From a virus, in IMG/VR virus record IMGVR_UViG_3300017991_000311, positions 1 to 30,357 of that record: 30,357 bases of DNA. One strand, written 5' to 3'. Below the pieces are notes generated by a model that saw nothing but the letters and a program-made list of their open reading frames with translations, made no database searches and was not told where the DNA came from. Positions within the stretch are counted from its first letter, which is position 1. Every line of letters begins with the position of its first letter. Made by a program: the position numbers and the translations under genes. Below are positions 1,684 through 30,214 of the stretch, one piece after another.

Positions 1684-4600
1684 TTAATACCCCGATACTA
1701 ATATTTTTGCCCCGGATCCCTCACAGTCAACATATGCTTTTGATCCCTCGCAAATAACTTTTGGCTTGCTTCCCGTTATTTCTGGTTGCCCCATCCTGCC
1801 ATATAAAGGATATGTGGCCGTCCCCATGGAAAGCGTGAGAGACATTGCCGATCCAGTGACATAGCCGGCATATGTAGGAGAATGAGGGGTTATGTTTAAA
1901 CGCATGACCGTTGCGTGAACAATCGGATCGTGCGACGATGAACTGCTTGAAGCACTGACAGACGTGCTTGACGACGACTCACTTGACGAGCTGACGCTCG
2001 AACTACTGAACGACGTGGATTCCGAGCTCGACGACGAAACCGATTCAGATTGCGAAGATGCAGAAGTTGACTCCGAGCTGGAAGATGAAACCGATTCAGA
2101 TTGCGAGCTTGAAACAGACTGAGACAAACTTTCCGAGACACTGGAAGACGAAAAGGAAGTTGATTCAGATCCTGAGCTTGAAACCGATTCCGAAGAAGAA
2201 CTTTCAGAGGTTGACTCTGAGCTGGAAACAGAAGCGGAAACCGATTCCGAAGAAGCCGATGTGGATTCCGAGCTTGAAGATGATTGCGATGTGCTTTCCG
2301 AACTGCTGGAAGATGAAACGGAAACAGATTCGCTTTCAGAGCTTGACGAACTCGAAACGGATGTACTTTCAGAGCTTGACGAACTCGAAACGGATGTACT
2401 TTCAGAACTTGAAGACGATACTGATGTAGATTCGGAGCTGGAACTGCTATATCCTCCGCAGCTATCGCCAATCCTGACATAATCTACATAAGATAGTCGG
2501 CCGTTGGTAGTCACGCCCCTTTGTAATAAATGGATCTCTCCATTCGTAAAAGAGCCTGTGTGCGAACAATCAACCGAAGTGGCAACTCGTGCATCGTTGC
2601 GATATACATCACAGGTGGCCGACGCAGGAGTGCTAAAATCAATATCAAACACCCATTTTTGCCAGGTGTCCTGAGCAACCAAATTTAACCCGACCTCGTT
2701 CCAATCCGATCCGTCGTAAATAAATAAACCGTCTGAAGCAAAAGACACATGGAGCAGAACTAAACTGTGTCGAACTTGAAACGTAACCTCGTCGCTGTCC
2801 GAAATCGTTCCAATAGCGTCACAATACAGCATTAATTCGGCAACAACCCTGTCGCCGAACTTTCCGACATCTCTGTAAACATGGGACCAATTATTAGGCG
2901 CTGCGGTATTGCCGGCCATTTTCAGGCAGCTTTTTGAGTCAAACGTTTCCTGGGTGCTTTCAGCGTTAATATTGTCGTCGTCCGTCCAATCAGTAATATC
3001 CGCCATATTTTCGTTTAGATATGACGCATTGCTTTCGCATTGTGAAGAGTCAAGCGAGCTTGAACTGCTGGAAGCTGATACGCTGGTGCTTTCTGACGAA
3101 CTGCTGCTGCTGGAAACAGACGTTGACTCGGATAAAGAAGATGAGCTTACACTCGTACTCTCGGAACTGCTCGAGCTGCTTTGAGATGTTGATTCCGAAC
3201 TGGAACTGCTGGAAACACTTGTTGAGGTTGATTCGGAGCTGGAACTTGACGAAACCGACGCTGATTCGGAAGAAGAGCTTGAAGAAACGCTTACACTTTC
3301 AGAGCTGGAACTGGACGATATTGAAACCGACTCTGAACTCGAACTGCTGGAAACACTTGTGCTCTCCGATGAACTTGAGCTGGAAACGCTCTCGGATTCC
3401 GAGCTGCTGGAACTGGAAACTGATGTTGACTCAGAACTGGAGCTCGACGAAACTGACGTTGATTCCGAGCTAGACGAACTGCTGGCGGATAATGATTCTG
3501 AACTGCTGGAAACGGATGTGCTTTCGGATCTGCTGCTACTGGATACGCTTATTGATTGGCTCGACGAACTTGAGCTGATAGATATAGAGACAGATTCGGA
3601 GCTCGAACTTGACGAAATAGACGTTGACTCCGAGCTGCTTGAGCTCGATACCGAAGTTGACTCAGAAGATGAGGAAGACGATGCTGACGCAGACTGAGAG
3701 CTGCTTGAACTCGAACTGCTGTACCCGCCGCAACTGTCTCCAACCCTGATGTAGTCTATATAGGACAGCATGTCGTTTGATGTCTGTCCGTACTGCTGTA
3801 AGTCTATATTTCCATCTGTAAAGCTTCCCGTATATGAACAATCTACGTCGCTTTCTACAAGATTATCATTAAGATGAACATTAACAGTGGCGCTTGCAGG
3901 AGTGCTAAAATCAATATCAAACACCCATTTTTGCCAGGTGTCCTGAGCAACAACGTTCGTGCCGATCTCGTTATATGAAAGACCATCAAAAACCCAAAGA
4001 CCATCGCTTGCAAGAACTAAAACCAGACTAACATCATCTCGCTGCACCCTGATTCTAAAATAGTCATTCTGGCCCAAAGTACCAATGGCATCGTGATATA
4101 TACTAAACTCAACAACAACCCTATCTCCAAAAGACCCGACATCTCTATATCTATAGGCATAATTTGGAATGGTTGCTGTATTGGTATCAAACCGCATACA
4201 GCTCTTTGAGTCAAAGGTGGTCTGGTCGCTTACGCCGTTTCCAGTGTCCCCATCTGTCCAATCGGAAATATCGGCCATATCCTCATTAAGATACGATCCG
4301 CTGCTTTCGCAACTGGGGAAGGTCGAGCTTGAACTGCTGGAAGACGATACGCTGGTGGATTCTGAACTTGAACTGCTGGAAACAGAGGTTGATTCGCTAT
4401 CACTCGTGGACTCGCTCGAGCTGGATTGCGAGGTTGATTCCGAACTCGAAGAAGAGCTGACCGACGTTGATTCGGAGCTTGAGCTACTGGATACGCTGGC
4501 CGACTCCGAACTGCTGCTACTCGAAACGGATGTGCTTTCAGAACTTGAACTTGAAGAAACGCTCGTGCTTTCAGAGGTGGAGCTTGATGATACGGATGTT

Positions 4601-6057
4601 GATTCTGACGAGCTGCTGGAAGACACACTCGTAGACTCGGAAGAACTGCTGCTTGAAACAGAAATTGACTCGCTCGAACTTGAGGACGAAACACTCTCCG
4701 ATGAACTGGATGAGCTGACGCTGGTGCTTTCAGAACTCGAACTGCTTGATATACTTTCAGATTCGCTGGAGCTGGAAGAGGAAACCGATTCAGATTGCGA
4801 ACTGCTGGAAGAACTAGAGCCTGCCGGTGTAAATTCTATTGTTAAATCACCGACACCCTCTGACCAATAGGTCTCGGAGTCTTCTGCTCCACCAACATGA
4901 TTCCATATAATAGCTATTTTATCGCCACTTTCAAATGCACCAGCTGAATCATCCCCATCTATTCTTGCTTGGATTAAATTATGAAGGCCTGAAGGACTTA
5001 CTTGAACCCCTGTATTTGGTTCATTCCATGTTAGAGTATCTGGGTGTATTGTTTGTTGTGAAGGCCGATTACTCGATCCCCACGTTCCCGGCGAGCGGTC
5101 ATCGACGATAGTTAGCTCACCTTGAGCACCTCCATTATAAATGCCTGTAACGTTAATTTCAATATCTGTTCCTGCGTCTGCTATTGTAGCCCCTGGTAAA
5201 TCAGCATCCGTAACTGTCCACATCCAGCCAACATCGAGTGGAGCACCACCATAATCACCTACATAAATATTGCCACTGCTATCATCATACCAAGTGGTAT
5301 TATTATGCTCAAATCCATCATCAGCGTCTGTTACGGTACTTGGCCCCCAGGTATCAGGCTTGATACTCACAGAAGCAACGGTACTATAAACCTTTTCCTT
5401 GAGATAAACTTCTGTTTTATCTGTTTCCAAAGATACTTTATGGTCTATATCCTCAGATTTTTCCCACAACCAGTAACTCTTGCTGTCTTTAAAAACATAT
5501 TTGGTTCTTCCGGAAAGATTAGGAAGCGCAGGTTTAGCTAATGTTGCTTCCTGGTCAAATTCTAAGGTTGTGCGTTGTAACTTATCTAAGGTTTTGGCCG
5601 TGCCTGTATAGCCAAAAGTAATCTGCTTTGCCCCGCCCATCTCAAACGTAATGTTTGATTTAAAATCTTCGGTTTCGACATTGTATGAGATTTCAAGCCT
5701 ATCCGCAGAATCTTCATTCTCGATAACCTTTGTTGTCAGACCGGACACAGTCGCCGTTTTCCGGTCAAACTCTCCGGGTGTGAGTTCTTTTTCAATCTCA
5801 GGGTGTGCGCCAAAACCGATTAACTTAGTGTTCTTTTCCCATATTTCCACACCCTCAGTAACAAAGCGCAACTCATAGCGATTAAACTTACATATCTTTT
5901 TCTCAGCATCCCACACATAAGGTTTATAATCTTTACCGTCTAAGACGTTGACCTGGCCTATTCCTCCCTTATAGACTTTCTGGCCTGTAGGTTTACCGTC
6001 TTCGGTAACGTTAAACTTTCGCCCGGTAAGGGTATATTTTGTGTGTTCTAATGCCAT
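1684..6057 (-). CDS. Giant serine-rich fibre/adhesin with two duplicated globular domains
   Basis: This is a 1457-residue protein. Residues 1-410 form a beta-rich, probably virion-attached head. Three serine-rich tracts follow at about 411-578, 779-1002 and 1204-1375, built from units such as SSSSSSESTSVS. Between them lie two homologous domains of about 200 residues (579-778 and 1003-1203). Both contain SYLNE(D/N)MADI(S/T)DWTD, TFDSKSC, a shared VAQDTWQKWVFDIDFSTPAS core, and end in RIGDSCGGY or RVGDSCGGY, which resembles a lectin/LamG-like jelly roll. A compact domain of about 80 residues closes the protein. The start codon overlaps the stop of the upstream glycosyltransferase gene (TAATG), so translation is probably coupled. 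It is likely an extended host-binding fibre whose stalk is O-glycosylated. The architecture is seen directly; the glycosylation is inferred from the neighbouring genes. Confidence 0.85.
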   Translation of the reverse strand: MALEHTKYTLTGRKFNVTEDGKPTGQKVYKGGIGQVNVLDGKDYKPYVWDAEKKICKFNRYELRFVTEGVEIWEKNTKLIGFGAHPEIEKELTPGEFDRKTATVSGLTTKVIENEDSADRLEISYNVETEDFKSNITFEMGGAKQITFGYTGTAKTLDKLQRTTLEFDQEATLAKPALPNLSGRTKYVFKDSKSYWLWEKSEDIDHKVSLETDKTEVYLKEKVYSTVASVSIKPDTWGPSTVTDADDGFEHNNTTWYDDSSGNIYVGDYGGAPLDVGWMWTVTDADLPGATIADAGTDIEINVTGIYNGGAQGELTIVDDRSPGTWGSSNRPSQQTIHPDTLTWNEPNTGVQVSPSGLHNLIQARIDGDDSAGAFESGDKIAIIWNHVGGAEDSETYWSEGVGDLTIEFTPAGSSSSSSSQSESVSSSSSSESESISSSSSSESTSVSSSSSSESVSSSSSSESISVSSSSSSESTSVSSSSSSESTSVSSSSTSESTSVSSSSSSESTSVSSSSSSESASVSSSSSSESTSVSSSSSSESTSQSSSSESTSDSESTSVSSSSSSESTSVSSSSSSSSTFPSCESSGSYLNEDMADISDWTDGDTGNGVSDQTTFDSKSCMRFDTNTATIPNYAYRYRDVGSFGDRVVVEFSIYHDAIGTLGQNDYFRIRVQRDDVSLVLVLASDGLWVFDGLSYNEIGTNVVAQDTWQKWVFDIDFSTPASATVNVHLNDNLVESDVDCSYTGSFTDGNIDLQQYGQTSNDMLSYIDYIRVGDSCGGYSSSSSSSSQSASASSSSSSESTSVSSSSSSESTSISSSSSSESVSISISSSSSSQSISVSSSSRSESTSVSSSSESLSASSSSSSESTSVSSSSSSESTSVSSSSSSESESVSSSSSSESTSVSSSSSSESVSISSSSSSESVSVSSSSSSESASVSSSSSSESTSTSVSSSSSSESTSQSSSSSSESTSVSSSSLSESTSVSSSSSSSESTSVSASSSSSSLDSSQCESNASYLNENMADITDWTDDDNINAESTQETFDSKSCLKMAGNTAAPNNWSHVYRDVGKFGDRVVAELMLYCDAIGTISDSDEVTFQVRHSLVLLHVSFASDGLFIYDGSDWNEVGLNLVAQDTWQKWVFDIDFSTPASATCDVYRNDARVATSVDCSHTGSFTNGEIHLLQRGVTTNGRLSYVDYVRIGDSCGGYSSSSSESTSVSSSSSESTSVSSSSSSESTSVSSSSSSESESVSVSSSSSSESTSQSSSSSESTSASSESVSASVSSSESTSESSSSESVSSSGSESTSFSSSSVSESLSQSVSSSQSESVSSSSSESTSASSQSESVSSSSSESTSFSSSSVSSSSESSSSTSVSASSSSSSHDPIVHATVMRLNITPHSPTYAGYVTGSAMSLTLSMGTATYPLYGRMGQPEITGSKPKVICEGSKAYVDCEGSGAKILVSGY
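1930..2448 (-). repeat. Serine-rich coding repeat tract 3
   Basis: This tract encodes about 170 residues dominated by Ser with regular Glu, Thr, Val and Gln (units like SSSSESTSVS, plus SESVSSS variants). It lies between the second lectin-like domain and the C-terminal cap. Serine codons of both the TCN and AGY types are mixed, so the DNA repeat is much less exact than the protein repeat. Confidence 0.9.
2450..3050 (-). repeat. Duplicated lectin-like domain, copy B (copy A at about 3722-4320)
   Basis: Copy B encodes about 200 residues and is a homologue of copy A. Conserved blocks include the SYLNE..MADI start, FDSKSC, VYRDVG/RYRDVG, FGDRVV, LASDGL or FASDGL, an exact VAQDTWQKWVFDIDFSTPAS block and a DSCGGY end. 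The DNA of the exact block is also nearly identical between the copies, while the flanks have diverged. This indicates an internal duplication with local conservation or recent gene conversion. Confidence 0.85.
3050..3720 (-). repeat. Serine-rich coding repeat tract 2
   Basis: This central stalk segment of about 224 residues separates the two duplicated globular domains. The period is roughly 10 residues (SSSSSSEST plus a variable hydrophobic and Ser). Small variants include SISISSSS, SASVS and a STSTSVS insertion. It is encoded on the minus strand inside the giant fibre gene. Confidence 0.9.
4320..4825 (-). repeat. Serine-rich coding repeat tract 1
   Basis: This tract of about 168 residues follows the N-terminal region. 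It opens with a run of Ser followed by QSESVSSSS and passes through repeated ESTSVSSSSSS units before the first lectin-like domain begins at a Cys near residue 582. Confidence 0.9.
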
Positions 6058-6944
6058 TACCTAATATCTGTACTCCATTTTTCGAACTCGCCCTTGAGTA
6101 AATTCCAGCTATCCTTAGCGCCCTTTAAGCATTTAGGGGCATTTCCCCTTTGAGTATTGCAATATTTATCCATATTTCTTAAAATTCCGTTTAACCATCC
6201 CTCTTGCCACCACTTCCCATGCACCATAAGAACTTCAAGGCCGTCATGCGTAACCAACTTATCGTGTTTTAGGAAAACTCTTGTGTCCGGTTTTAATTGA
6301 AATTCGTGCAGGCCTGTGACCTGTTGGGCCGGTAATATGAGTATTTTGTCAGGCTTGCGGTCATCAATTTCGATGTTTTGTATGATATGAATGTTTACTA
6401 ACTCAAAATCACAAAAGGCATTGCTTTTTATCTTGGATTCGTAAATATTTCTCCATATATACCCGTACTTATCGACATCCATCCAAGTAGGCACACTTCC
6501 CATGGTTTTAGGCCAGAAACAGTCTATTGGTTCGCCCAATCTTTTGGCAAAATCCTTTCCAAAATAAAACGTACTTCCGTTTGCGCCGCCTACGATAATC
6601 CCGGTTTCGGCTATATCAAAAAACATTTCCATATTTCTGCAAAAGAACATATCGGCATCACACATCATAACAACGCCTGAAAGCTCAGATGCAAACTTAA
6701 ACCTTGGAATCTTGGTGCTCCAGGCCACGTTAGGTTTCCCTGGGTTATTATCCCACCCAAGAGCTACCACTTCAACGTATGGCCTATGCCTGACGTGCTT
6801 ATCGAGCCAAGCTTCATCAAGGTCTAAGCCCAATAAATATACCTTTATGTTGCTGTTTTTATGGTAGTATTCAAAGCTATTTAAAAATGCCAATACGCCG
6901 GGTTGGAACCCGTTTGATGCGGATACGACTATTGATCGATTCAT
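6057..6944 (-). CDS. Glycosyltransferase, GT8-like (GT-A fold)
   Basis: This 295-residue protein has an N-terminal Rossmann-type start (SIVVSASNGFQPGVLAFLNS) and a nucleotide-sugar binding DxD motif in VVMMCDADMFF (Asp96 and Asp98). The layout resembles glycosyltransferase family 8 and related GT-A enzymes that transfer a sugar from a nucleotide donor using a divalent metal. There is no membrane anchor, so it would act in the cytoplasm. The start overlaps the upstream methyltransferase stop by four bases (ATGA), and its own stop overlaps the start of the giant serine-rich gene. That makes the serine-rich protein the most economical substrate, although host surface sugars cannot be excluded. 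The DxD is seen; the family and substrate are inferred. Confidence 0.8.
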   Translation of the reverse strand: MNRSIVVSASNGFQPGVLAFLNSFEYYHKNSNIKVYLLGLDLDEAWLDKHVRHRPYVEVVALGWDNNPGKPNVAWSTKIPRFKFASELSGVVMMCDADMFFCRNMEMFFDIAETGIIVGGANGSTFYFGKDFAKRLGEPIDCFWPKTMGSVPTWMDVDKYGYIWRNIYESKIKSNAFCDFELVNIHIIQNIEIDDRKPDKILILPAQQVTGLHEFQLKPDTRVFLKHDKLVTHDGLEVLMVHGKWWQEGWLNGILRNMDKYCNTQRGNAPKCLKGAKDSWNLLKGEFEKWSTDIR

Positions 6945-7501
6945 GTTTTCCTCACAATTCCCATGCCGGACCGTTCTTTCAATTCCATGGTTTCAGGAAA
7001 CTCAGACTTAACTTTCGCCCAACCTTCCTTTGAAGATGTGTAAATGTCGTGGATAAACACATAACCCTTGCCGTCATTTCTTATGTGTGGCCACAGTGTC
7101 GTTATTTCATGCCAAATCGCTTCTAACTTGTGGCTTCCGTCCAATAGAACAAAATCAACCCTTCCGATATTTTCTTTTATAAAATCACTGGTCAGGTTCA
7201 TGCTGTTCATGTTCCATATCTGATGATTAATATCAGCTTCGCTCATTATTTCTATTAAAGCGTTTACGGCTCCTATACGCAGCTCAATACCAAAATACTT
7301 ACCTCCCATTTCTTTAGCTGCGTGACCCAACCAGTAAGCCGAACTTCCCGACCCTATACCTACCTCAAGGATGTTTTTAGCATCCATCTGCTTTGCCCAG
7401 GTATACATAATCGGTGCGGTAAAAAGAGAACCCGATCTATGTGTGTGGTTTCCCTCAACTACCGACTCAAAGTTTTGGTCTAAATCTAAAATTCCTCTCA
7501 T
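6941..7501 (-). CDS. Class I SAM-dependent methyltransferase, paralog 2
   Basis: This 186-residue protein has the SAM-binding glycine loop ILEVGIGSGSS (about residues 44-54), an acidic motif in KYFGIEL, a catalytic-type segment VDFVLLDGSH and a late FIHDIY motif. This set fits the Methyltransf_24/cephalosporin hydroxylase-like group, whose members often methylate sugars. It is clearly paralogous to the gene just upstream: both share HRSGS(L/F)F, APIMY, GGKYFG, FIKENIGR, EAIWHEITT(L/I)WPH and GYVFIHDIY. Both junctions are four-base ATGA overlaps, so it is translated as part of a tightly coupled cassette. Methylation of sugars on the fibre is a reasonable guess. Confidence 0.82.
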   Translation of the reverse strand: MRGILDLDQNFESVVEGNHTHRSGSLFTAPIMYTWAKQMDAKNILEVGIGSGSSAYWLGHAAKEMGGKYFGIELRIGAVNALIEIMSEADINHQIWNMNSMNLTSDFIKENIGRVDFVLLDGSHKLEAIWHEITTLWPHIRNDGKGYVFIHDIYTSSKEGWAKVKSEFPETMELKERSGMGIVRKT

Positions 7502-8067
7502 ACTTTCCTCACCATTCCCAGGCCAAACCCGGCTTTTAATTCAAACGTTTCTTTATAGTTCGCCTTAACCTTCGCCCAACCCTCTTTTGAGTCCGAATAA
7601 ATATCGTGGATAAAGACATACCCGCTCCCGTCACTTCGCATGTGCGGCCAGATTGTCGTTATTTCGTGCCAAATCGCTTCCGTACTGTGATCACCGTCTA
7701 AATAAGCGATATCAATTCTTCCGATGTTTTCTTTTATAAACTCGTCTGTCATTTCCCGGCTGCTCATACACCATAATTGATAGTTAAGATCGAACTGAGC
7801 CATCAACTTTTCCAGGCCATTAACACGTCCATGGTCAATCTCCATGCCGAAATACTTGCCACCGTTTTCTTTAGCCGCATGGCTAAGCCAAAAACCGGCA
7901 CTCCCAAAGCATGTCCCAATCTCAAGTATGGTCTTGGCTTTCATTTGTTTTATAAAGCAGTACATAATCGGGGCCATAAAGAACGAACCCGACCTATGGT
8001 TATGAACCCCCGATAGATTTTCTTTAAACCCCTGTTCCAGGTCTATAACGCCTTTGTGTTCAGCCAT
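7498..8067 (-). CDS. Class I SAM-dependent methyltransferase, paralog 1
   Basis: This 189-residue protein carries the SAM loop ILEIGTCFGSA (about residues 47-57), GGKYFGMEID, the acidic YLDGDH motif (about 122-127) and FIHDIYSDS near 153. The His/Asp-rich late motifs are typical of sugar-modifying methyltransferases of the cephalosporin hydroxylase-like type. The start lies inside the end of the upstream GT9-like gene (about 25 bases of overlap) with an AGGAAG site. Its stop overlaps the next paralog by four bases. Two adjacent copies may modify different hydroxyls or successive sugars, but this cannot be told from sequence. Confidence 0.82.
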   Translation of the reverse strand: MAEHKGVIDLEQGFKENLSGVHNHRSGSFFMAPIMYCFIKQMKAKTILEIGTCFGSAGFWLSHAAKENGGKYFGMEIDHGRVNGLEKLMAQFDLNYQLWCMSSREMTDEFIKENIGRIDIAYLDGDHSTEAIWHEITTIWPHMRSDGSGYVFIHDIYSDSKEGWAKVKANYKETFELKAGFGLGMVRKV

Positions 8068-8849
8068 TCTTTTACGCTTCCTTTTTGGTAATTATTAATA
8101 TCAACCACCGCAATGTCCTGTTTTGTATAGCATTTTACTAAATACTCTTTTTCTAAATATAAAGTCCTGTCCGGCATAACAGCCATGCTTATATGGAAAT
8201 TACCCGAATCCACGCAGATGGAAGCCGCGCAGCGCTGGTACAGTGAAATTAACGTTTTAATTGATGGTTTGGCTCTTCGTATGCTGCAGTCAATAAAGCC
8301 AAATTTGGCATTGACCGGATTGTAGTATTTATGCTGAAAGAAGGCTTCTATCGGAATAAAACCTGCTTCTATGATTTCTTTCCAGATTTGCTCTGCGGTT
8401 TCCTCAGAGGGATTTATCGGGTCCGGCAATGCGGTTGCCTGGAAATGGCAGGCTACTAATTTGCTCGGACAATTCTCAAGTTCTGGATAATCGTCAACAG
8501 GATCAATCCCCAATTCCTGAACACAGCACCACCCCTGCTTGGTGTATGCTCCGTTAAGATGTTCGGACATGGGAAAGTGAATCTGAAAGGTATAGTCGTA
8601 GCCTTCGATGGCTTCATTGGGGGTGTCGATTAGCAACCCATCGGGAAACAGCTCTTCCTGGCCGACTCCGTTTTGAAGGGCAATATCAATTTGTGTCCCC
8701 GGAAAAAGCGCTTTTAGCTTTGAAAGCGGGGACATAAACATGATCACATCACCGAGGCCATGCCAGAATATCAGGCATACTTTCTTGGGTGAGTTTTTGA
8801 TCAGGTAGTCCGCTACCTTCATTCCGGCATAGTCGGTGATTAATTCCAT
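8043..8849 (-). CDS. Glycosyltransferase, GT9 (heptosyltransferase-like)
   Basis: This 268-residue protein resembles the ADP-heptose:LPS heptosyltransferase (GT9, GT-B fold) family. The N-terminal acceptor-side motif is FWHGLGDVIMFMSPLSKLK (about 29-47), followed by LFPGTQIDIAL. The donor-side motif is ICVDSGNFHISMA (about 211-223), which corresponds to the DSG..H motif of the family. It is somewhat short compared with the usual 300-350 residues. It lies five bases after the 86-residue gene and overlaps the methyltransferase paralog downstream. It probably transfers a heptose or other sugar; the real donor and acceptor are unknown. Confidence 0.8.
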   Translation of the reverse strand: MELITDYAGMKVADYLIKNSPKKVCLIFWHGLGDVIMFMSPLSKLKALFPGTQIDIALQNGVGQEELFPDGLLIDTPNEAIEGYDYTFQIHFPMSEHLNGAYTKQGWCCVQELGIDPVDDYPELENCPSKLVACHFQATALPDPINPSEETAEQIWKEIIEAGFIPIEAFFQHKYYNPVNAKFGFIDCSIRRAKPSIKTLISLYQRCAASICVDSGNFHISMAVMPDRTLYLEKEYLVKCYTKQDIAVVDINNYQKGSVKEWLNTKAL

Positions 8850-8853
8850 TTAT

Positions 8854-9114
8854 TTATTCCATTGGTTTAAACCTGCGAACCTTCCCCGGTAAATTGTATG
8901 CCGATGGTGCAAGTTTCAGTTGTTCTCTCAGGCTGTGGGCCACATCCTCTTTAGGAAAATTGATATACCCCTGCCAGTGAGAAAGTTTATCTTCCTTTTT
9001 AGTGGTAATGGTAATCAGAAAGCTGCCGACTTTCTCTGCATCGGCCAACTTTTCGTTCATATCGTTGAGTGTTTTTGTCGTTGACGAAATTGCCTTTACT
9101 TTTCCATCTTTCAT
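8854..9114 (-). CDS. Small conserved-looking protein of unknown function
   Basis: This is an 86-residue, mixed-charge protein beginning MKDGKVKAISSTTKTLNDMNEK. It has a strong GGAGG site eight bases before the ATG and ends four bases before the GT9-like gene. There are no cysteines or membrane segments. It contains HWQGYINFPKEDV and SLREQLKLAPSAYNLPGKVRRF, which suggest a small alpha/beta fold. It is the first gene after a 188-base gap and so may open the second half of the glycosylation cassette. I do not recognise a family. Confidence 0.7.
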   Translation of the reverse strand: MKDGKVKAISSTTKTLNDMNEKLADAEKVGSFLITITTKKEDKLSHWQGYINFPKEDVAHSLREQLKLAPSAYNLPGKVRRFKPME

Positions 9115-9302
9115 AGCTGCCTCCTTTTTTCATGCAATATGGTCATAATATGAACATATTACATAACCCATGCTTTATTGTTTACTATTTGGCTAATTCT
9201 CGCTTGTATAACGCCATATTGGCGGCCTAATTCGGTTTGAGTATAAAGTAACTTTATGTTTTCCTGTTTTATCCAACTTGGTTCCTATTTTTTTTATATA
9301 TA
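9115..9302 (-). promoter_or_regulatory. AT-rich intergenic gap with small dyads
   Basis: This 188-base gap splits the sugar-modification cassette. It is very AT-rich. It contains an odd palindrome TCATA-A-TATGA at 9143-9153, repeated CATATT-type words around it, and a small hairpin CGCCA-TAT-TGGCG near 9212-9224. I cannot find a convincing -35/-10 pair and no run of U follows the hairpin, so a promoter or operator is only suggested by position. Confidence 0.3.
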
Positions 9303-10166
9303 TCAAAATGAAAGAATGCCTCCAGAATAATATAAAAGTACGTTCTTGGCGACTTCCTGAGGGCTTATCATTGCAAAGCACCTTGGAACACCGCCTACCC
9401 TTGACTTGCAATCCTGATACTTGGCCGTCCAGCAGCCGTTACCCGGAGCGCATTTCAGGCACCCGCACACAGACAGATACCTGTGATAGTTATACATCTG
9501 CCACCTGGGAGGTTCTTTCCCCCCTGCAACGATTACAGATGGCTTATTAAACGCTGTTGACAGTACAAACTGACACGACACAGGTCCGATTGTCCCTTCA
9601 GACCGATAGATAACCTGTATCAGCTCTCTCAAATTGGTTTTTCCCACCAAGTTAAACGCGCCATCAAGGTCGTTGTGAACATCGCTATTTGAACCCACCT
9701 GAACGATCTGAATCTTGTTTTTAAGTTCCTCCACAACCTCCTGCCAGAAAGGATAATACTTTAATATCGCATCGGCCTTGTACCCGGCATTTAACACCCA
9801 ATATTTACCGGAATAGCTTGTTTGTTCCTGGACAATATTTCTCTTTTTTTCCTCGGTAGTGAGATGAAGATCAATATTCATATTGGTAAAAGGGATATCA
9901 ATTCCCAACTGCTTGGCTAAATCGAGCCGGAAACCGTCTGAAAACGACATGGAACCCGGTTTCTGAATCAGCGGATATCCGAGATCCAACTCTCTCCCTT
10001 CTTCAAGCTCGGTAATATACGGATTGTTTTCCCACAGTTCCGGCCATCTGGTGCGAACGTCCGTTTGATATTCTCCCGGGTGCGATAGGTGTAAATCTCG
10101 AACCGCAATGGTCATCATGGCCGTGTCGCCCACATCAAGGCCGTGTTTTAATATTAATTTTTCCAA
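9303..10166 (-). CDS. Glycosyltransferase, GT9-like with C-terminal cysteine cluster
   Basis: This 287-residue protein has a GT9-type N-terminal loop (DVGDTAMMT, residues 11-19) and a donor-site region LVGKTNLRELIQVIYRSEGTIGPVSC (about 173-198), where heptosyltransferases have their GKT.L..L and DSG motifs. This is followed by AFNKPSVIVAGG. The usual Asp of DSG is replaced here (IGPVSC), so activity or donor choice may differ. A cysteine cluster, CGCLKC and GCW (about 234-246), may bind metal. The start is one base after the upstream methyltransferase stop. It probably acts with the other transferases on the fibre or the host surface. Confidence 0.75.
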   Translation of the reverse strand: MEKLILKHGLDVGDTAMMTIAVRDLHLSHPGEYQTDVRTRWPELWENNPYITELEEGRELDLGYPLIQKPGSMSFSDGFRLDLAKQLGIDIPFTNMNIDLHLTTEEKKRNIVQEQTSYSGKYWVLNAGYKADAILKYYPFWQEVVEELKNKIQIVQVGSNSDVHNDLDGAFNLVGKTNLRELIQVIYRSEGTIGPVSCQFVLSTAFNKPSVIVAGGKEPPRWQMYNYHRYLSVCGCLKCAPGNGCWTAKYQDCKSRVGGVPRCFAMISPQEVAKNVLLYYSGGILSF

Positions 10167-10679
10167 TTATTTCCTCTTAAACAGAAAAGATCCGATATCC
10201 TGCCTTATCCCACACTCAGGGTTGCCCTTTTTAACGAGCTTATAACCCCGCCTGTCAAAAAATTCCTCAATAGACGCTTCGGTAAATGTGGTAATATGCT
10301 CACCGGGTTTATAATGATGCCACCTATACAACAGTACCCCTTCGGGCAAAATAGGCACTGTCACCGCCGCCCATTTTGCATGATGCAGCATGAAGTTTGC
10401 CAGGTTGAGATCTGTTAAGTGCTCAAGCACGTCCCAAAAGGTAATCAGGTCGTATTTTTCCCTCCTGATCCCGGTTTGGGGCGCAACACCGACATCGTAA
10501 GTGTCAACTTCAACATCCGGCGGTCTGAACACCCTGAACCAGGGAACCCCGGCCCCAAAGTCCAATACTGTTTTTGCCTTGGCTTTTTTGACAAAATCCC
10601 ATCTGATATTGGCAATCTTTTCGGACGTTACGCTGTTCAGGTACAATGTTCGCTCGTAATAATCTAAGTCGTATTTCAT
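10167..10679 (-). CDS. Class I SAM-dependent methyltransferase (type 11/12-like)
   Basis: This 170-residue protein has SAM motif I VLDFGAG (about 38-44), an acidic turn VDTYDVGV and the post-motif block YDLITFWDVLEHL (about 77-89), typical of Methyltransf_11/12/23 enzymes. The C-terminal HHYKPGEHITTFTEASIEEF resembles the part of these proteins that follows the substrate cap. It begins the cassette just after the Ig-like gene and is followed without a gap by the GT9-like gene. It differs from the two tandem methyltransferases at 6941-8067, so the cassette holds two methyltransferase types. Confidence 0.82.
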   Translation of the reverse strand: MKYDLDYYERTLYLNSVTSEKIANIRWDFVKKAKAKTVLDFGAGVPWFRVFRPPDVEVDTYDVGVAPQTGIRREKYDLITFWDVLEHLTDLNLANFMLHHAKWAAVTVPILPEGVLLYRWHHYKPGEHITTFTEASIEEFFDRRGYKLVKKGNPECGIRQDIGSFLFKRK

Positions 10680-22765: not shown

Positions 22766-24235
22766 TTACCATTCTTCCTCTTCCAGCTCTTCCTTTAGCT
22801 TATCCAGTTCATCCCATGCAGCCTGAGCGACAGCTCCAATCTTTTCCCTTTTGGCTGCGGTCTGTTTGGCTGACTCAGTCTTCTGAACTTCTGACGGAAC
22901 CAGGCTTAAAGGCCTGGCCATGCAAATATGACACGCTTCGTCATAAATATGATCCTCTTGTTGGGTATCGATATCTTCCGGATTATCATCATCCATACAT
23001 AAAGCAGGTATTGTCCTGATGAATTGCTTACAGGTGTCGTAAATCATCATCATTGGCATGGTATCTTTTGGGATAACGAGTCTTTCCCTGAACTGTCTGA
23101 TCTTAAGCGTTCTTTTCTCATCCGCTGGCCTTAATATTAATCCAGCACCCCTAAAAACTTCCGCAGTACTCGGCCCCTGCCCTCCGCCCCTATAGTCCGG
23201 TTTTTTATTGAAACAATCTGTCCCGGCAATCCGAATAATTTGCCTGTTCTCAATCCCCAGGTTTTTTTCTCGTTCAATAATCTTTTGAGCTATAATAGAA
23301 TCCTCAATTCTTATCCCCTCGTTTGGCGTTCCGTTCCATCCGTACCATTCTGCAAACCGATAAGCCCTGTTGTCCGCATCTATCCACCACCATCCAACCG
23401 AAAAAGGCGCTCCAAAACCCCAATCAAATGTCATATAAATGGGAGCATAATCAGGTATTGGCGCCGGGGGAATGATATGATAGTCTCTGGTAAGATTAAA
23501 AGCCTGACCTATAAACACGTCCCAATCTCCTTTAATCCATGCTTTTTTGAGCGCCGGATCTTTAATCGATAACAGTCGAGCCACATAAAGCGGATCGTTT
23601 TCGCATAAAATTTTATTATCGTGTAAAAAAGAGGGAATAAATATCCGAGATTCTTTAAACCCGCCTTCCAGCTCGTGATACATAATTGTTTTAGGTTCTA
23701 CGCCTGCCGAACCGAGCTGAAAATACTCTTTGACTTCGTTGTGACCGGGGCCGCCGGGATTACCTGTACCGAACATATGACACGGCACGGCATGCGGTGA
23801 TCTGCAGGACCCTTTTAGCTTGTCCACCATCTTGGTAAAAAACGGAAATGTCGTACACTCATCAATACCTATTTCCGTATATTGCTGGCCTACATGATCG
23901 TTCACCTTTTCGAGTCGGTCAATGGCAGTCATTACAGACTGAGCGCCGTTCTTAAAACGTAAATAATTTGTCTGCTGATCCCCTCCAACTCGTTCGGCAG
24001 GCAAACCACTGGAAATTAAAGAATCAACCCTTCTTCGCATTTCAGCGAATTCTTTATACTTTCGCCTTACCATCAGACCGTTCCAGTGCTCTTTATAGAG
24101 CTCAGAGCCTCTAATCTGTCTCCCGAGCAAACAGTCAGACTTACCTCCACCCCTGGAACCGCCAAAAAAAGTAAAATCAACCGGACAGGTTGCCGCTTCT
24201 ACCTGTGGCCCGGGTTGTGGCATCCAGAAAGCCAT
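22766..24235 (-). CDS. terL: Terminase large subunit
   Basis: This protein has 489 residues from the ATG at 24235, which lies five bases after the small-subunit stop with GGGGA upstream. A longer frame from 24280 is less likely. The ATPase motif GGSRGGGKS (about residues 25-33) is the Walker A, IGIDE (about 122-126) is the Walker B, and GTGNPGGPG (about 156-164) is a coupling-type motif. The nuclease domain begins with MTFDWGF (Asp at about 271), followed by IAGTDCFNKKPDYRGG. This is the DNA packaging motor and headful or site-specific nuclease. It acts on the portal with the small subunit. Confidence 0.92.
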   Translation of the reverse strand: MAFWMPQPGPQVEAATCPVDFTFFGGSRGGGKSDCLLGRQIRGSELYKEHWNGLMVRRKYKEFAEMRRRVDSLISSGLPAERVGGDQQTNYLRFKNGAQSVMTAIDRLEKVNDHVGQQYTEIGIDECTTFPFFTKMVDKLKGSCRSPHAVPCHMFGTGNPGGPGHNEVKEYFQLGSAGVEPKTIMYHELEGGFKESRIFIPSFLHDNKILCENDPLYVARLLSIKDPALKKAWIKGDWDVFIGQAFNLTRDYHIIPPAPIPDYAPIYMTFDWGFGAPFSVGWWWIDADNRAYRFAEWYGWNGTPNEGIRIEDSIIAQKIIEREKNLGIENRQIIRIAGTDCFNKKPDYRGGGQGPSTAEVFRGAGLILRPADEKRTLKIRQFRERLVIPKDTMPMMMIYDTCKQFIRTIPALCMDDDNPEDIDTQQEDHIYDEACHICMARPLSLVPSEVQKTESAKQTAAKREKIGAVAQAAWDELDKLKEELEEEEW

Positions 24236-24239
24236 AAGG

Positions 24240-24914
24240 CTAATCCCCAGGATTGCTATCTTTAGTGCGTTTTGAATCATTTACCTGCTTTTCCCATTCT
24301 GCGATTGTTAAGGGACCTGACGGATATAAGGTTAAACCACCTTCTCCCTCACCCGGGGGTTTTGGTGGCTCATCATCTAAATTGTACGATTGCCTTTCCA
24401 GTGGAATTAAACGACTGACTGCTAAAGAAACGGAATTGAATAGTGTTGATTTTTGCGCTGGGGGTATTTTAATATAAATTTTCTTTCCTTTATCTGTGAC
24501 CTTGCCTACAATTTTATCTTTTTTTAATTCATCTATAAAACGCACAGCCGTTTCCCTGCACCGTTTAATGAGGTTTCGGTGGCTTGTAATTATTCTAACA
24601 CCCTCTTCCGCAGCTTCTTCAATGGCTTCTTTTTCGAACTTTTCTTGCTCTTCCTTGGTGTTCACTATTTTAGTGTTCACTTTTGGTTTTTTGTTCACTA
24701 ATTTGGCTCGTACACTCTGCCGAACCCTTTTAGACAAATCTCTTTCTATCTTCTGCTCTTCTTTTATTTTGCAAACATACGCCGGTGAACACGCATGTTT
24801 TCGAGCAACTTCTCTTAAAGTCAACATTCCTGCAGCAATGTCTTTTGCAATGCCTTCAATGTCAAACCGAGACTTTTTTTTATTCTTGCCTTTCTTTTTC
24901 ATTTCTTTAAACAC
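24240..24914 (-). CDS. terS: Terminase small subunit candidate
   Basis: This 224-residue protein (GTG at 24914, or ATG at 24902) lies directly upstream of the large subunit. The N-terminal 25-60 region IEGIAKDIAAGMLTLREVARKHACSPAYVCKIKEEQ is a helix-turn-helix, as expected for DNA recognition at the packaging site. Helical oligomerisation-like regions follow, then a Pro/Gly-rich C-terminus (DDEPPKPPGEGEGG) that would contact the large subunit. The assignment rests on context and the HTH rather than a family match. Confidence 0.75.
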   Translation of the reverse strand: MFKEMKKKGKNKKKSRFDIEGIAKDIAAGMLTLREVARKHACSPAYVCKIKEEQKIERDLSKRVRQSVRAKLVNKKPKVNTKIVNTKEEQEKFEKEAIEEAAEEGVRIITSHRNLIKRCRETAVRFIDELKKDKIVGKVTDKGKKIYIKIPPAQKSTLFNSVSLAVSRLIPLERQSYNLDDEPPKPPGEGEGGLTLYPSGPLTIAEWEKQVNDSKRTKDSNPGD

Positions 24915-27494: not shown

Positions 27495-28337
27495 TTAGTT
27501 TCCTCCAAATATTAATCTTGAGTCTATCTCCCTTCCATTAAGCTGGGGATTCTGACTAAACCCCTGTGATTTGATAGTTTTTTGCACACCCTGATTGATT
27601 TTTACTGGTGTTTGGCTTGGATTTAAATTTTTTCTGAGTGCTGCGGTAAAAGCTCCCTGCCATTTTCCGTCGATATAAGCGTCAGCTGATGTCTGATGGT
27701 CCTGACATCCTGAAAAAATAACATGGTTAAGACAGGATTTGCTGCCCATTTTTCGGTTCTGAAAGTCCCTGTTCGCCGACCTCATAATTATGTCTCTCGG
27801 GGGAGCTAAAAATCTCGGTTTAGCTTTTTTTAGGTTTCTTGACATGGTTGCTGAATGGCAGGCGTCACAGATGAAAGTAAGAAATGAGTTTTCTGGAAGG
27901 TCCCTGAAGATGTTGTCTAAAAGGTCGTCGGTGAAGGGATAGTCAAAGTCCATGTCATACGGACAAAGTATTTCGTCAAGTTCATCATCCAGCTCGTCGC
28001 CGTTTCGGTCCCGTACCTGAGAACCATGGCCGGAGTACTGGAATACAAGCTCGCTGTTGTCGTGATCGATTAGCCATATCAGGCGGTCTATGATATTATT
28101 TTTGGTTGCTCTGGAATTTGTTAAGACGCGAATATTGTCAGGATGGAAGCCAAATATATTGATCAGATCAGAGCGCAATCCCTCAACGTCGTTCACGCAT
28201 CCGTTCAGATTGCAATTCCAATCGGGTGGGTATTCGTTAAGGCCGACCAGGAGCGCATATTTTTCGGTCTTTTCTTCCGGAATGATGATTTCCTGATCCG
28301 GTTTGGATGGTTTGAAGAAGTCGCAAAGTTTACACAT
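27495..28337 (-). CDS. Metacaspase/caspase-like C14 peptidase in a lysis cassette
   Basis: This 280-residue protein has a clear caspase-like p20 domain: YALLVGLNEYPP (about 27-38), LNGCVNDVEGLRSDLI, FQYSGHGSQ with catalytic His104, and FICDACHSAT with catalytic Cys160. Acidic DRNGDELDDELDEILCPYD (about 110-128) resembles the calcium- or substrate-binding region of metacaspases. A C-terminal extension from about residue 170 contains HVIFSGCQDHQTSADAY, also typical of the family. The start has GGAGG six bases upstream and overlaps the lysozyme stop. Such proteases cleave after Arg/Lys and act in cell-death systems; here it lies between lysozyme and holin. The target is unknown. Confidence 0.88.
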   Translation of the reverse strand: MCKLCDFFKPSKPDQEIIIPEEKTEKYALLVGLNEYPPDWNCNLNGCVNDVEGLRSDLINIFGFHPDNIRVLTNSRATKNNIIDRLIWLIDHDNSELVFQYSGHGSQVRDRNGDELDDELDEILCPYDMDFDYPFTDDLLDNIFRDLPENSFLTFICDACHSATMSRNLKKAKPRFLAPPRDIIMRSANRDFQNRKMGSKSCLNHVIFSGCQDHQTSADAYIDGKWQGAFTAALRKNLNPSQTPVKINQGVQKTIKSQGFSQNPQLNGREIDSRLIFGGN

Positions 28338-28981: not shown

Positions 28982-29125
28982 CTATTTCTCTTTTGAATCA
29001 ATTGATTCGGTTGTTGTCCAAGTAATTTTACATTTTAGGCACCTTCTTACTCTCTTAACATCATCACGATGCTTCCATGTTGTTATAATCTTTTGTTTTT
29101 CAAACCCGCAGTTCTTACATTTCAT
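28982..29125 (-). CDS. NrdR-like zinc ribbon miniprotein
   Basis: A 47-residue protein overlaps the previous stop by four bases (ATGA). Cys3, Cys6, Cys29 and Cys32 (MKCKNCGFEK and VRRCLKCKITWTTTES) reproduce the zinc ribbon of NrdR, whose ribbon has RRRR.C..C..RFTT.E. The ATP-cone that senses nucleotides in NrdR is absent, so it is a stand-alone ribbon. It could bind DNA as a small regulator. It is the last gene before the regulatory palindrome. Confidence 0.72.
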   Translation of the reverse strand: MKCKNCGFEKQKIITTWKHRDDVKRVRRCLKCKITWTTTESIDSKEK

Positions 29126-29819: not shown

Positions 29820-29869
29820 AATGTATTAAGGCTTATCATCCCTTAGTTTGGGTATGATACAGCCGTTTG

Positions 29870-30054
29870 TTATGTAGTTAGGTCGTGCGTTCATGGTCAA
29901 TAAGGGGCCTAGGTCCTCATTTATTCCCCGGCTGGGAGGACTCCACGGTACACTTTTATGTGTTTCGCTTTTGCTCATCAGCCGATCTTTAAGATGCCGG
30001 GCCAGATGTTCCCAATGTCAGCCCCTTTGGGGAACCAACGGCCTAACTACATAA
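29870..30054 (-). ncRNA. Structured RNA element enclosing a hammerhead motif
   Basis: The ends TTATGTAGTTAGG and CCTAACTACATAA form a perfect 13-base-pair stem spanning 185 nt. Inside are nested complementary blocks: CGTTGGT with ACC..AACG (three-base bulge), AAGGGGC with GCCCCTT, and CCCGGC with GCCGGG. These lead to the hammerhead core in the middle, so the whole can fold as a rod. No convincing reading frame covers it, although the 5' strand of the stem overlaps the last codons of the upstream gene. The overall class is not one I recognise. Confidence 0.6.
29946..29984 (-). ncRNA. Type I hammerhead ribozyme motif
   Basis: The minus strand contains the full conserved core: CTGATGA (29981-29975), stem II GC-AAAA-GC with the canonical G10.1-C11.1 pair, GAAA (29966-29963), stem III ACAC-ATAAAA-GTGT, then U16.1 and A17 (a GUA cleavage triplet), followed by CCG, which pairs with CGG before the core (stem I). 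Predicted cleavage is between 29949 and 29948. Stem I continues after an internal loop. All core bases are present, so chance is unlikely. The short two-base stem II is the weak point. Confidence 0.75.
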
Positions 30055-30214
30055 TGGGTTGTTCAACAGAGCAGGCATCGCCATTGTCAAAATACTCGGA
30101 GGTAAATTTCTCTATAAGTCCTAAACCTCTTTCAGCCCCACTGTTATCACCAATAACACCAGAATAAATCACACCCAACCAAAGACAATGTATCTGAAAC
30201 TGTTTTTTATCCAT
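30047..30214 (-). CDS. Small protein of unknown function upstream of the RNA element
   Basis: A 55-residue frame runs from the ATG at 30214 (AGAGG five bases upstream) to a TAG at 30047. It begins MDKKQFQIHCLWLGVIYSGV and continues with GAERGLGLIEKFTSEYFDNG, ending EQPIM. The sequence resembles a small alpha/beta protein, but no family is known to me. Its last codons lie within the first strand of the 13-base stem, so translation and RNA folding could interfere. Confidence 0.6.
   Translation of the reverse strand: MDKKQFQIHCLWLGVIYSGVIGDNSGAERGLGLIEKFTSEYFDNGDACSVEQPIM

Follow-up and report, generated by a model that had tools for sequence, protein, structure and literature searches.

A predicted hammerhead ribozyme at the repeat boundary of an intertwined two-repeat phage RNA

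The described elements closest to the one analysed here are the type I hammerhead ribozymes (Rfam clan CL00010), with which, as they are described in PMC3088659, it has the invariant core, the order of the stems and the NUH cut site in common; unlike them, it occupies a fixed site in a conserved RNA that supplies one of its stem I strands. The hammerheads of phages PaP3 and Bcep176, which appear in that source, lie like ours in phage intergenic regions. PaP3, however, lacks the conserved elements of our RNA family, and neither PaP3 nor Bcep176 was matched by CM R1, the covariance model described below; after comparison, the PaP3 hammerheads were set aside as another kind of element.

The RNA around the hammerhead was compared with other known systems as well. 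ROOL and GOLLD are structured phage RNAs, often placed beside tRNA genes and several times longer than the two-repeat RNA described here, which is likewise a structured phage RNA often near tRNA genes and had no match in Rfam scans. Type III antitoxin RNAs consist of short pseudoknotted repeats, each forming its own pseudoknot, and are cut at their boundaries by the toxin; in our RNA, in contrast, the hammerhead would cut and the loops pair between repeats. Tandem H-type pseudoknots beside a toxin gene were not found, the pseudoknots here running between the repeats, and no toxin family appeared in tallies of 53 upstream and 53 downstream ORFs (PHROGs only, best 25 families each). Permuted tmRNA is composed of two pieces held by base pairing, has a permuted gene order and is processed to separate ends. 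Its sequence and fold are unrelated to those of our RNA, in which the cutter would be a ribozyme within the RNA; we detected no tRNA-like domain, tag reading frame, or ARAGORN or Rfam match of the tmRNA kind, a 9.8-bit edge match to tmRNA in one locus (L082) being the 3' end of the upstream tRNA. PMC10085705 mentions a circularly permuted two-piece tmRNA, and PMC3475682 reports a phage RNA that mimics ToxI.

The hammerhead core in the window

The window is the whole stretch of DNA that was analysed, 30,357 nucleotides of the virus record IMGVR_UViG_3300017991_000311. Its minus strand carries a type I hammerhead with every core residue and the following parts, read from the sequence where no other evidence is named:

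29946-29984, minus strand: type I hammerhead (core residues, descriptor scan, sub-threshold Rfam match, comparison of relatives)
29984-29982 with 29948-29946, minus strand: stem I, its 3' strand being the first three bases of repeat 2
29981-29975, minus strand: core CTGATGA
29974-29967, minus strand: stem II
29966-29963, minus strand: G12 to A15.1
29963-29960 with 29953-29950, minus strand: stem III
29948-29949, minus strand: predicted self-cleavage site between A17 (29949) and C1.1 (29948), directly 5' of the first base of repeat 2 (descriptor; relatives)

Read 5' to 3', the minus strand shows CGG (29984-29982) followed by CTGATGA, then stem II as GC-AAAA-GC with only 2 bp, then GAAA, CAC-ATAAAA-GTG (29962-29951), T 29950, A17 and finally CCG (29948-29946). 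The CUGANGA...GAAA core, the A15.1-U16.1 pair and the NUH cut site of the type I class are thus all present; each core position that the first-pass annotation had named on this strand was found in the sequence, and its predicted cut, 29949/29948, is also the position that we read from the core.

A descriptor comprising the core, 3 bp of stem I, 2 bp of stem II with G10.1-C11.1, 4 bp of stem III and NUH, drafted after the site had been seen, gave a single hit when both strands of the window were scanned; in 400 first-order Markov windows of matching composition there was none. A chance motif is ruled out by these simulated windows and by the existence of the RNA family described below. An Rfam 15 scan of the window gave no match at the gathering threshold; for the hammerhead models this also held in 17 other loci of the family. 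The covariance scan that the earlier annotation had proposed as a check accordingly fell short, the best sub-threshold model (Hammerhead_HH9, over 29946-29984) scoring 15.5 bits against a cut-off of 52. These scores lower the case for membership in those Rfam models and not in the core-defined hammerhead class; it is by its core that the predicted ribozyme is filed as a hammerhead.

Predicted fold energies disfavour the hammerhead core in the window: the nearest-neighbour optimum for a 76-nt segment was -22.3 kcal/mol with the hammerhead not formed, while the fold in which it was enforced reached -17.6 kcal/mol, that is, 4.7 kcal/mol costlier.

Two intertwined repeats around the hammerhead

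Judged by comparison of relatives, the hammerhead is not a lone ribozyme and appears instead as a 47-nt insert in a structured phage RNA of ~95 nt. The structured RNA spans ~29902-30041, with a flanking helix reaching 29869-30055, so the frame of the first-pass annotation was too small; it had placed the hammerhead correctly in a phage intergenic region, a description that leaves out the conserved non-coding RNA into which the hammerhead is inserted and which has hammerhead-free versions too. The parts are as follows:

29902-30041, minus strand: whole two-repeat RNA with hammerhead insert, from the N of repeat 1 to the end of the helix B 3' strand
29996-30041, minus strand: repeat 1, comprising N-CGUUGG, the helix A hairpin, AUCU and a tail that forms the helix C 5' strand
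29949-29995, minus strand: 47-nt insert between the repeats carrying the hammerhead core, absent or short in 27/99 relatives
29902-29948, minus strand: repeat 2, comprising N-CGUGGAGU, helix D and a tail that forms the helix B 3' strand
30035-30030 with 30013-30008, minus strand: helix A, GUUCCC/GGGAAC; 99.0% of cells paired, 5/6 pairs change on both sides
30027-30021 with 29908-29902, minus strand: helix B (pseudoknot), AAGGGGC/GCCCCUU; 86.4% of cells paired, 7/7 pairs change on both sides
30001-29996 with 29932-29927, minus strand: helix C, CCCGGC/GCCGGG; 99.7% of cells paired, 6/6 pairs change on both sides
29941-29936 with 29918-29913, minus strand: helix D (pseudoknot with C), GUCCUC/GAGGAC; 99.8% of cells paired, 3/6 pairs change on both sides
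29920-30037, minus strand: tertiary pair U30037-A29920 (positions 8/80), G-C in 79 and U-A in 20 of 99 relatives
30055-30038 with 29886-29869, minus strand: outer closing helix P0, 16/18 paired, overlapping a 23-nt inverted repeat
29948-30041, minus strand: first bases of repeats 1 and 2, C30041 and C29948, the same here and in nearly all relatives

Each unit reads N-CGU-GG-(A)-GU, a hairpin, AC and a tail. The helix A hairpin loop of repeat 1 carries the helix B 5' strand and the helix D loop of repeat 2 carries the helix C 3' strand and AAUAAAUG, with each loop pairing to the tail of the other unit, the unit 1 loop through B and the unit 2 loop through C; this layout suggests that the two units arose by duplication.

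All 25 helix pairs are Watson-Crick in the window. Only helices A and C guided the alignment; the pairing in the pseudoknot helices B and D played no part in building it. The proportion of paired cells is 93.8% in the 27 hammerhead-free sequences and 95.8% in the 99 distinct rows of all kinds; in both sets 21/25 pairs vary on both sides. The covariation score of the 99 rows was 0.636 versus 0.152 when shuffled and at most 0.128 when slid, with 0/500 shuffles as good. Moreover, an unbiased mutual-information scan recovered the four helices, together with the position 8/80 pair and a link of identity between positions 4 and 52. The inverted repeat that overlaps P0 (29870-29892/30032-30054) flanks the RNA region, and at least 14 complementary flank bases were counted in 42/99 members versus 9/293 mismatched-flank controls.

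The first bases of the two repeats (N) are equal in 96/99 members: 71/73 of those with a hammerhead (32.7 expected) and 25/26 of those without (8.7 expected), a rule also followed in 28/29 further loci and 16/16 permuted loci. On a tree built without the N columns, N changes at least 32 times; well-supported branches alone gave 8/8 independent pairs the same way for C (sign test p ~0.008). An ordinary pair does not explain bases that are the same and not complementary; a contact across the pseudo-symmetry axis, or one shared partner, would. Pairing of the first base of repeat 1 within P0 was considered and rejected, since it holds for G while C often faces A, C or T, the complementarity being often missing when the first base is C. 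Covariation by identity is something that ordinary base-pair covariation tests do not look for.

Relatives, permuted forms and gene neighbourhood

CM R1 was built from the 27 hammerhead-free relatives only. It matched the window at 29888-30044 on the minus strand (93.5 bits, E 4.5e-26), treating the hammerhead as a plain insertion, and gave hits at 100 places in 100 sources; among 190 genomes belonging to a single bacterial class, it matched one, the genome of its own origin. When the window was searched by sensitive blastn against phage records, 29907-30041 alone matched, at 80% identity, in Arthrobacter phages Constance and Karkharias, where hammerhead stems II and III are altered and still paired; blastn on plasmids gave no related sequence. 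Pattern scans of viral contigs and GTDB genome contigs produced a large family, with at least 119 stretches in one viral-contig scan and 15 in the GTDB contigs (14 the two-repeat RNA, one, L238, the permuted form). A first pattern, TGACATTNNNNNNCATCTGGC, was abandoned, its 54 matches being mostly chance. After removal of double counts, 99 distinct members remained in the fetched loci.

Carriers include phages of Actinobacteria, Enterobacterales, cyanobacteria and uncultured hosts; named two-repeat carriers are Mycobacterium phages Gaia and phiGD24-3, and Microcystis phage Mwe-JY26 carries the RNA without a hammerhead. One phage contig has two tandem hammerhead-free copies (L063 269-425, plus strand). 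Membership of an Rfam family was discarded, as Rfam 15 scans gave no match of the RNA. No description of it was found in a literature search largely confined to papers outside subscription, and the supplement of PMC3088659 may list members as plain hammerheads. This is an RNA family of phages with no Rfam 15 entry, which we treat as a separate kind unless a match turns up.

We defined the insert as the stretch between the conserved CAUCU and CGNGGAGU. Its length in the 99 members is 44-104 nt in 72, 10-14 nt in 23 and 25-38 nt in 4; a hammerhead core was present in 72 (71 canonical, one with a U3/A8 change) and absent from the other 27, which indicates that cleavage is not essential to the RNA. 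Because some of the searches and the member regex required the hammerhead core, the count was redone with a core-independent pattern. That pattern listed 145 distinct matches, 120 of them with CAUCU and helix A upstream; 88 of these 120 have inserts of at least 36 nt, comprising 82 canonical cores, 3 with U3/A8 and 3 broken or lost (L132, L272, L276). The U3/A8 double change was proven active in vitro according to PMC3088659. Mycobacterium phage Gaia carries a core with this compensatory change (L250 3032-3128, plus strand).

Within the 72 hammerhead members the first pair of stem I is G-C in 35, C-G in 34, A-U in 2 and U-A in one, and stems II and III differ with pairing kept. The compensatory changes in the three stems across the 72 relatives, stems that had been named in the first-pass annotation, are comparative support for a type I hammerhead. 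Position 17 is C, A or U in 72/72. The 10.1-11.1 pair is neither G-C nor G-U in 34/72 (A.A 20, T.T 6, C.A 4, A.C 2, T.C 1, A.T 1), and activity may thus vary among members. As first stem II pairs, A.A (20/72) and T.T (6/72) are unusual for the hammerhead class.

A circularly permuted class comprises 16 loci, several of them near-identical, with the order hammerhead, repeat 2, hairpin, repeat 1; carriers include Pectobacterium phage Pappous and Enterobacter phage SDFMU_EhYP. Helices A, B and D are kept in all and helix C in all but one (L273), and the position 8/80 pair is G-C in 15 and U-A in one. The hammerhead is present at the 5' side of the RNA, where its cut would trim off the leader and leave the RNA whole. 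The predicted cut immediately 5' of repeat 2, rather than the neighbouring genes, appears to be the constant element of both gene orders.

Same-strand tRNA genes lie at most 500 nt from the RNA in 34/99 members, corresponding to 34/36 of those whose locus has any tRNA (12.7% for random positions). A tRNA was found at most 80 nt upstream in 19/127 members scanned, and in 7/19 there are 0-3 nt from the tRNA end to the N of repeat 1, exactly 0 nt in four members; tRNA processing would then give repeat 1 a 5' end like the one that the hammerhead would give repeat 2. Downstream, a tRNA at most 100 nt away was present in 19/127, 8/19 starting 12-15 nt after ..ACC, where helix B ends. Where a tRNA is absent, P0 often closes the RNA. 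The non-coding RNA around the hammerhead has the look of a matured one.

An uncontrolled PHROGs tally of hand-picked neighbouring ORFs covered 53/79 upstream and 53/88 downstream. Upstream, transcriptional regulators were commonest, with 7 and 4 members, followed by large terminase and sigma factors with 3 each; downstream, the commonest were HNH endonucleases, with up to 6 members in a family, and small terminase, with up to 3. This picture fits the start of late operons. The neighbouring genes point to no single function; they are too varied for cis-regulation of one gene type, which was discarded. TerL lies at most 500 nt from the RNA in 4/9 loci with TerL detected, versus 0.286 expected at random; this is not significant, and an association with packaging genes is not claimed.

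In the window itself, the RNA has small genes on one side and the lysis/late block on the other, being upstream of a DUF968/HNH-like gene, a lysozyme gene and a caspase-domain gene; terminase and portal genes follow at a greater distance. Other features of the minus strand were observed alongside. The caspase-domain protein (27495-28337, 280 aa, Peptidase_C14, E 3.7e-28) adjoins the lysozyme gene, and a 47-aa protein (28982-29125) is an NrdR-type zinc ribbon alone. The large-terminase ORF (22766-24280) opens with a hydrophobic, signal-peptide-like stretch before the P-loop, and its true start may be further in. A 1457-aa protein (1684-6057) has long Ser-rich repeats of the SSSSSESTSV type, and a gene run that resembles glycosyltransferases and methyltransferases, read from translations, stands amid structural genes (6057-10679).

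Possible roles of the cut at the repeat boundary

What sequence comparison establishes is a family with four helices, in which a hammerhead with an intact core has a defined insertion site and cut position, and of which a permuted order exists. The explanation that we favour, with a probability of about 0.7, is that of a stand-alone two-repeat RNA with the hammerhead as a built-in maturation device at the repeat boundary. The locus would encode a stand-alone phage non-coding RNA in which two related repeats form one intertwined body; the hammerhead between them would take one stem I strand from the start of repeat 2, and its cut exactly 5' of repeat 2 would give that repeat its own 5'-hydroxyl end, the 5' end of repeat 1 being made by tRNA processing or defined by the outer helix P0. 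In the window, the product would be an RNA nicked into two pieces that helices B, C and P0 keep together, and the ribozyme most likely processes a trans-acting late-phage RNA at the repeat boundary. Cleavage in the phage, the nicked form as the working form and trans action late in infection are what we infer from these comparisons. More specifically, the working form may consist of two pieces in a pseudo-symmetric arrangement, their 5' ends (N-CGUGG) being equivalent and arising from tRNA or P0 processing in one case and from the hammerhead in the other, a proposal to which we give somewhat less than even odds; if true, the two first bases would touch across the pseudo-symmetry axis, giving their near-constant identity in hammerhead-bearing, hammerhead-free and permuted members.

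The first-pass annotation had supposed that self-cleavage separates the transcript of the upstream small genes from the HNH, zinc-protein and lysis genes. The position of the window RNA between the small genes and the lysis/late block agrees with such an uncoupling of a long transcript, and operon processing has been proposed for clustered prophage hammerheads in PMC3088659; however, a cut of the window type would leave both ends paired in one folded RNA (helices B, C and P0) and the 16 permuted loci would be trimmed instead, which weakens that role. Furthermore, within the RNA family the hammerhead occurs only at the repeat boundary while the neighbours vary, and hammerhead-free versions occupy the same kinds of places; we regard a transcript separator as very unlikely. 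A natural aptazyme, with the double-pseudoknot RNA as sensor and the stem I hammerhead as an output switched by ligand or protein, seems quite improbable to us: stem I does join the hammerhead to the most conserved part, CGNGGAGU, and the first bases of repeat 1 (NCGU), which equal the stem I 3' strand, could compete for its 5' strand, but hammerhead-free members keep the same first bases (25/26) with no stem I strand to compete for, and the permuted order and the placement between tRNAs and flush with them fit a matured RNA gene better than a leader.

The hammerhead might also be a loop passenger that does no harm, since the RNA would keep its fold when cut, much as with cut insertions in rRNA. 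Its scattered presence, for which the best tree needs no fewer than 16 switches between presence and absence, 3 of them forced by branches with good support, and the remnants or replacements in the three loci with broken or lost cores are what one would see of a tolerated insert. Against this, the core is intact or compensated in 85/88 long inserts, the cut falls at the exact position (9 nt before the end of GGAGU) in 72/72 parsed members, and the hammerhead is present in 16/16 permuted loci, where it is no longer internal; from these counts we argue for selection and consider a passenger improbable. As to the RNA body, it could be a packaging RNA, like phi29 pRNA, or a defence decoy such as a type III antitoxin mimic; either is compatible with the maturation reading, and we hold them together to be unlikely. 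The RNA stands between TerL and portal genes in three loci (L114, L132, L188), small terminase and HNH proteins are among the downstream neighbours, and type III antitoxin RNAs come to mind in view of two pseudoknotted repeats with a predicted cut between them; yet the proximity to TerL is not significant, neither the phi29-type pRNA model of Rfam nor ToxI gave a match in the 20 sources scanned, and the pseudoknots join the two repeats rather than lying within each.

In this family the ribozyme is seen at one fixed place, present or absent, intact or decayed and in two gene orders, which makes its role directly testable, with phages Constance, Gaia and phiGD24-3 as cultured carriers. The RNA body itself occurs widely in phages, is strongly conserved, belongs to no Rfam family and has an unusual fold in which two repeats are intertwined.
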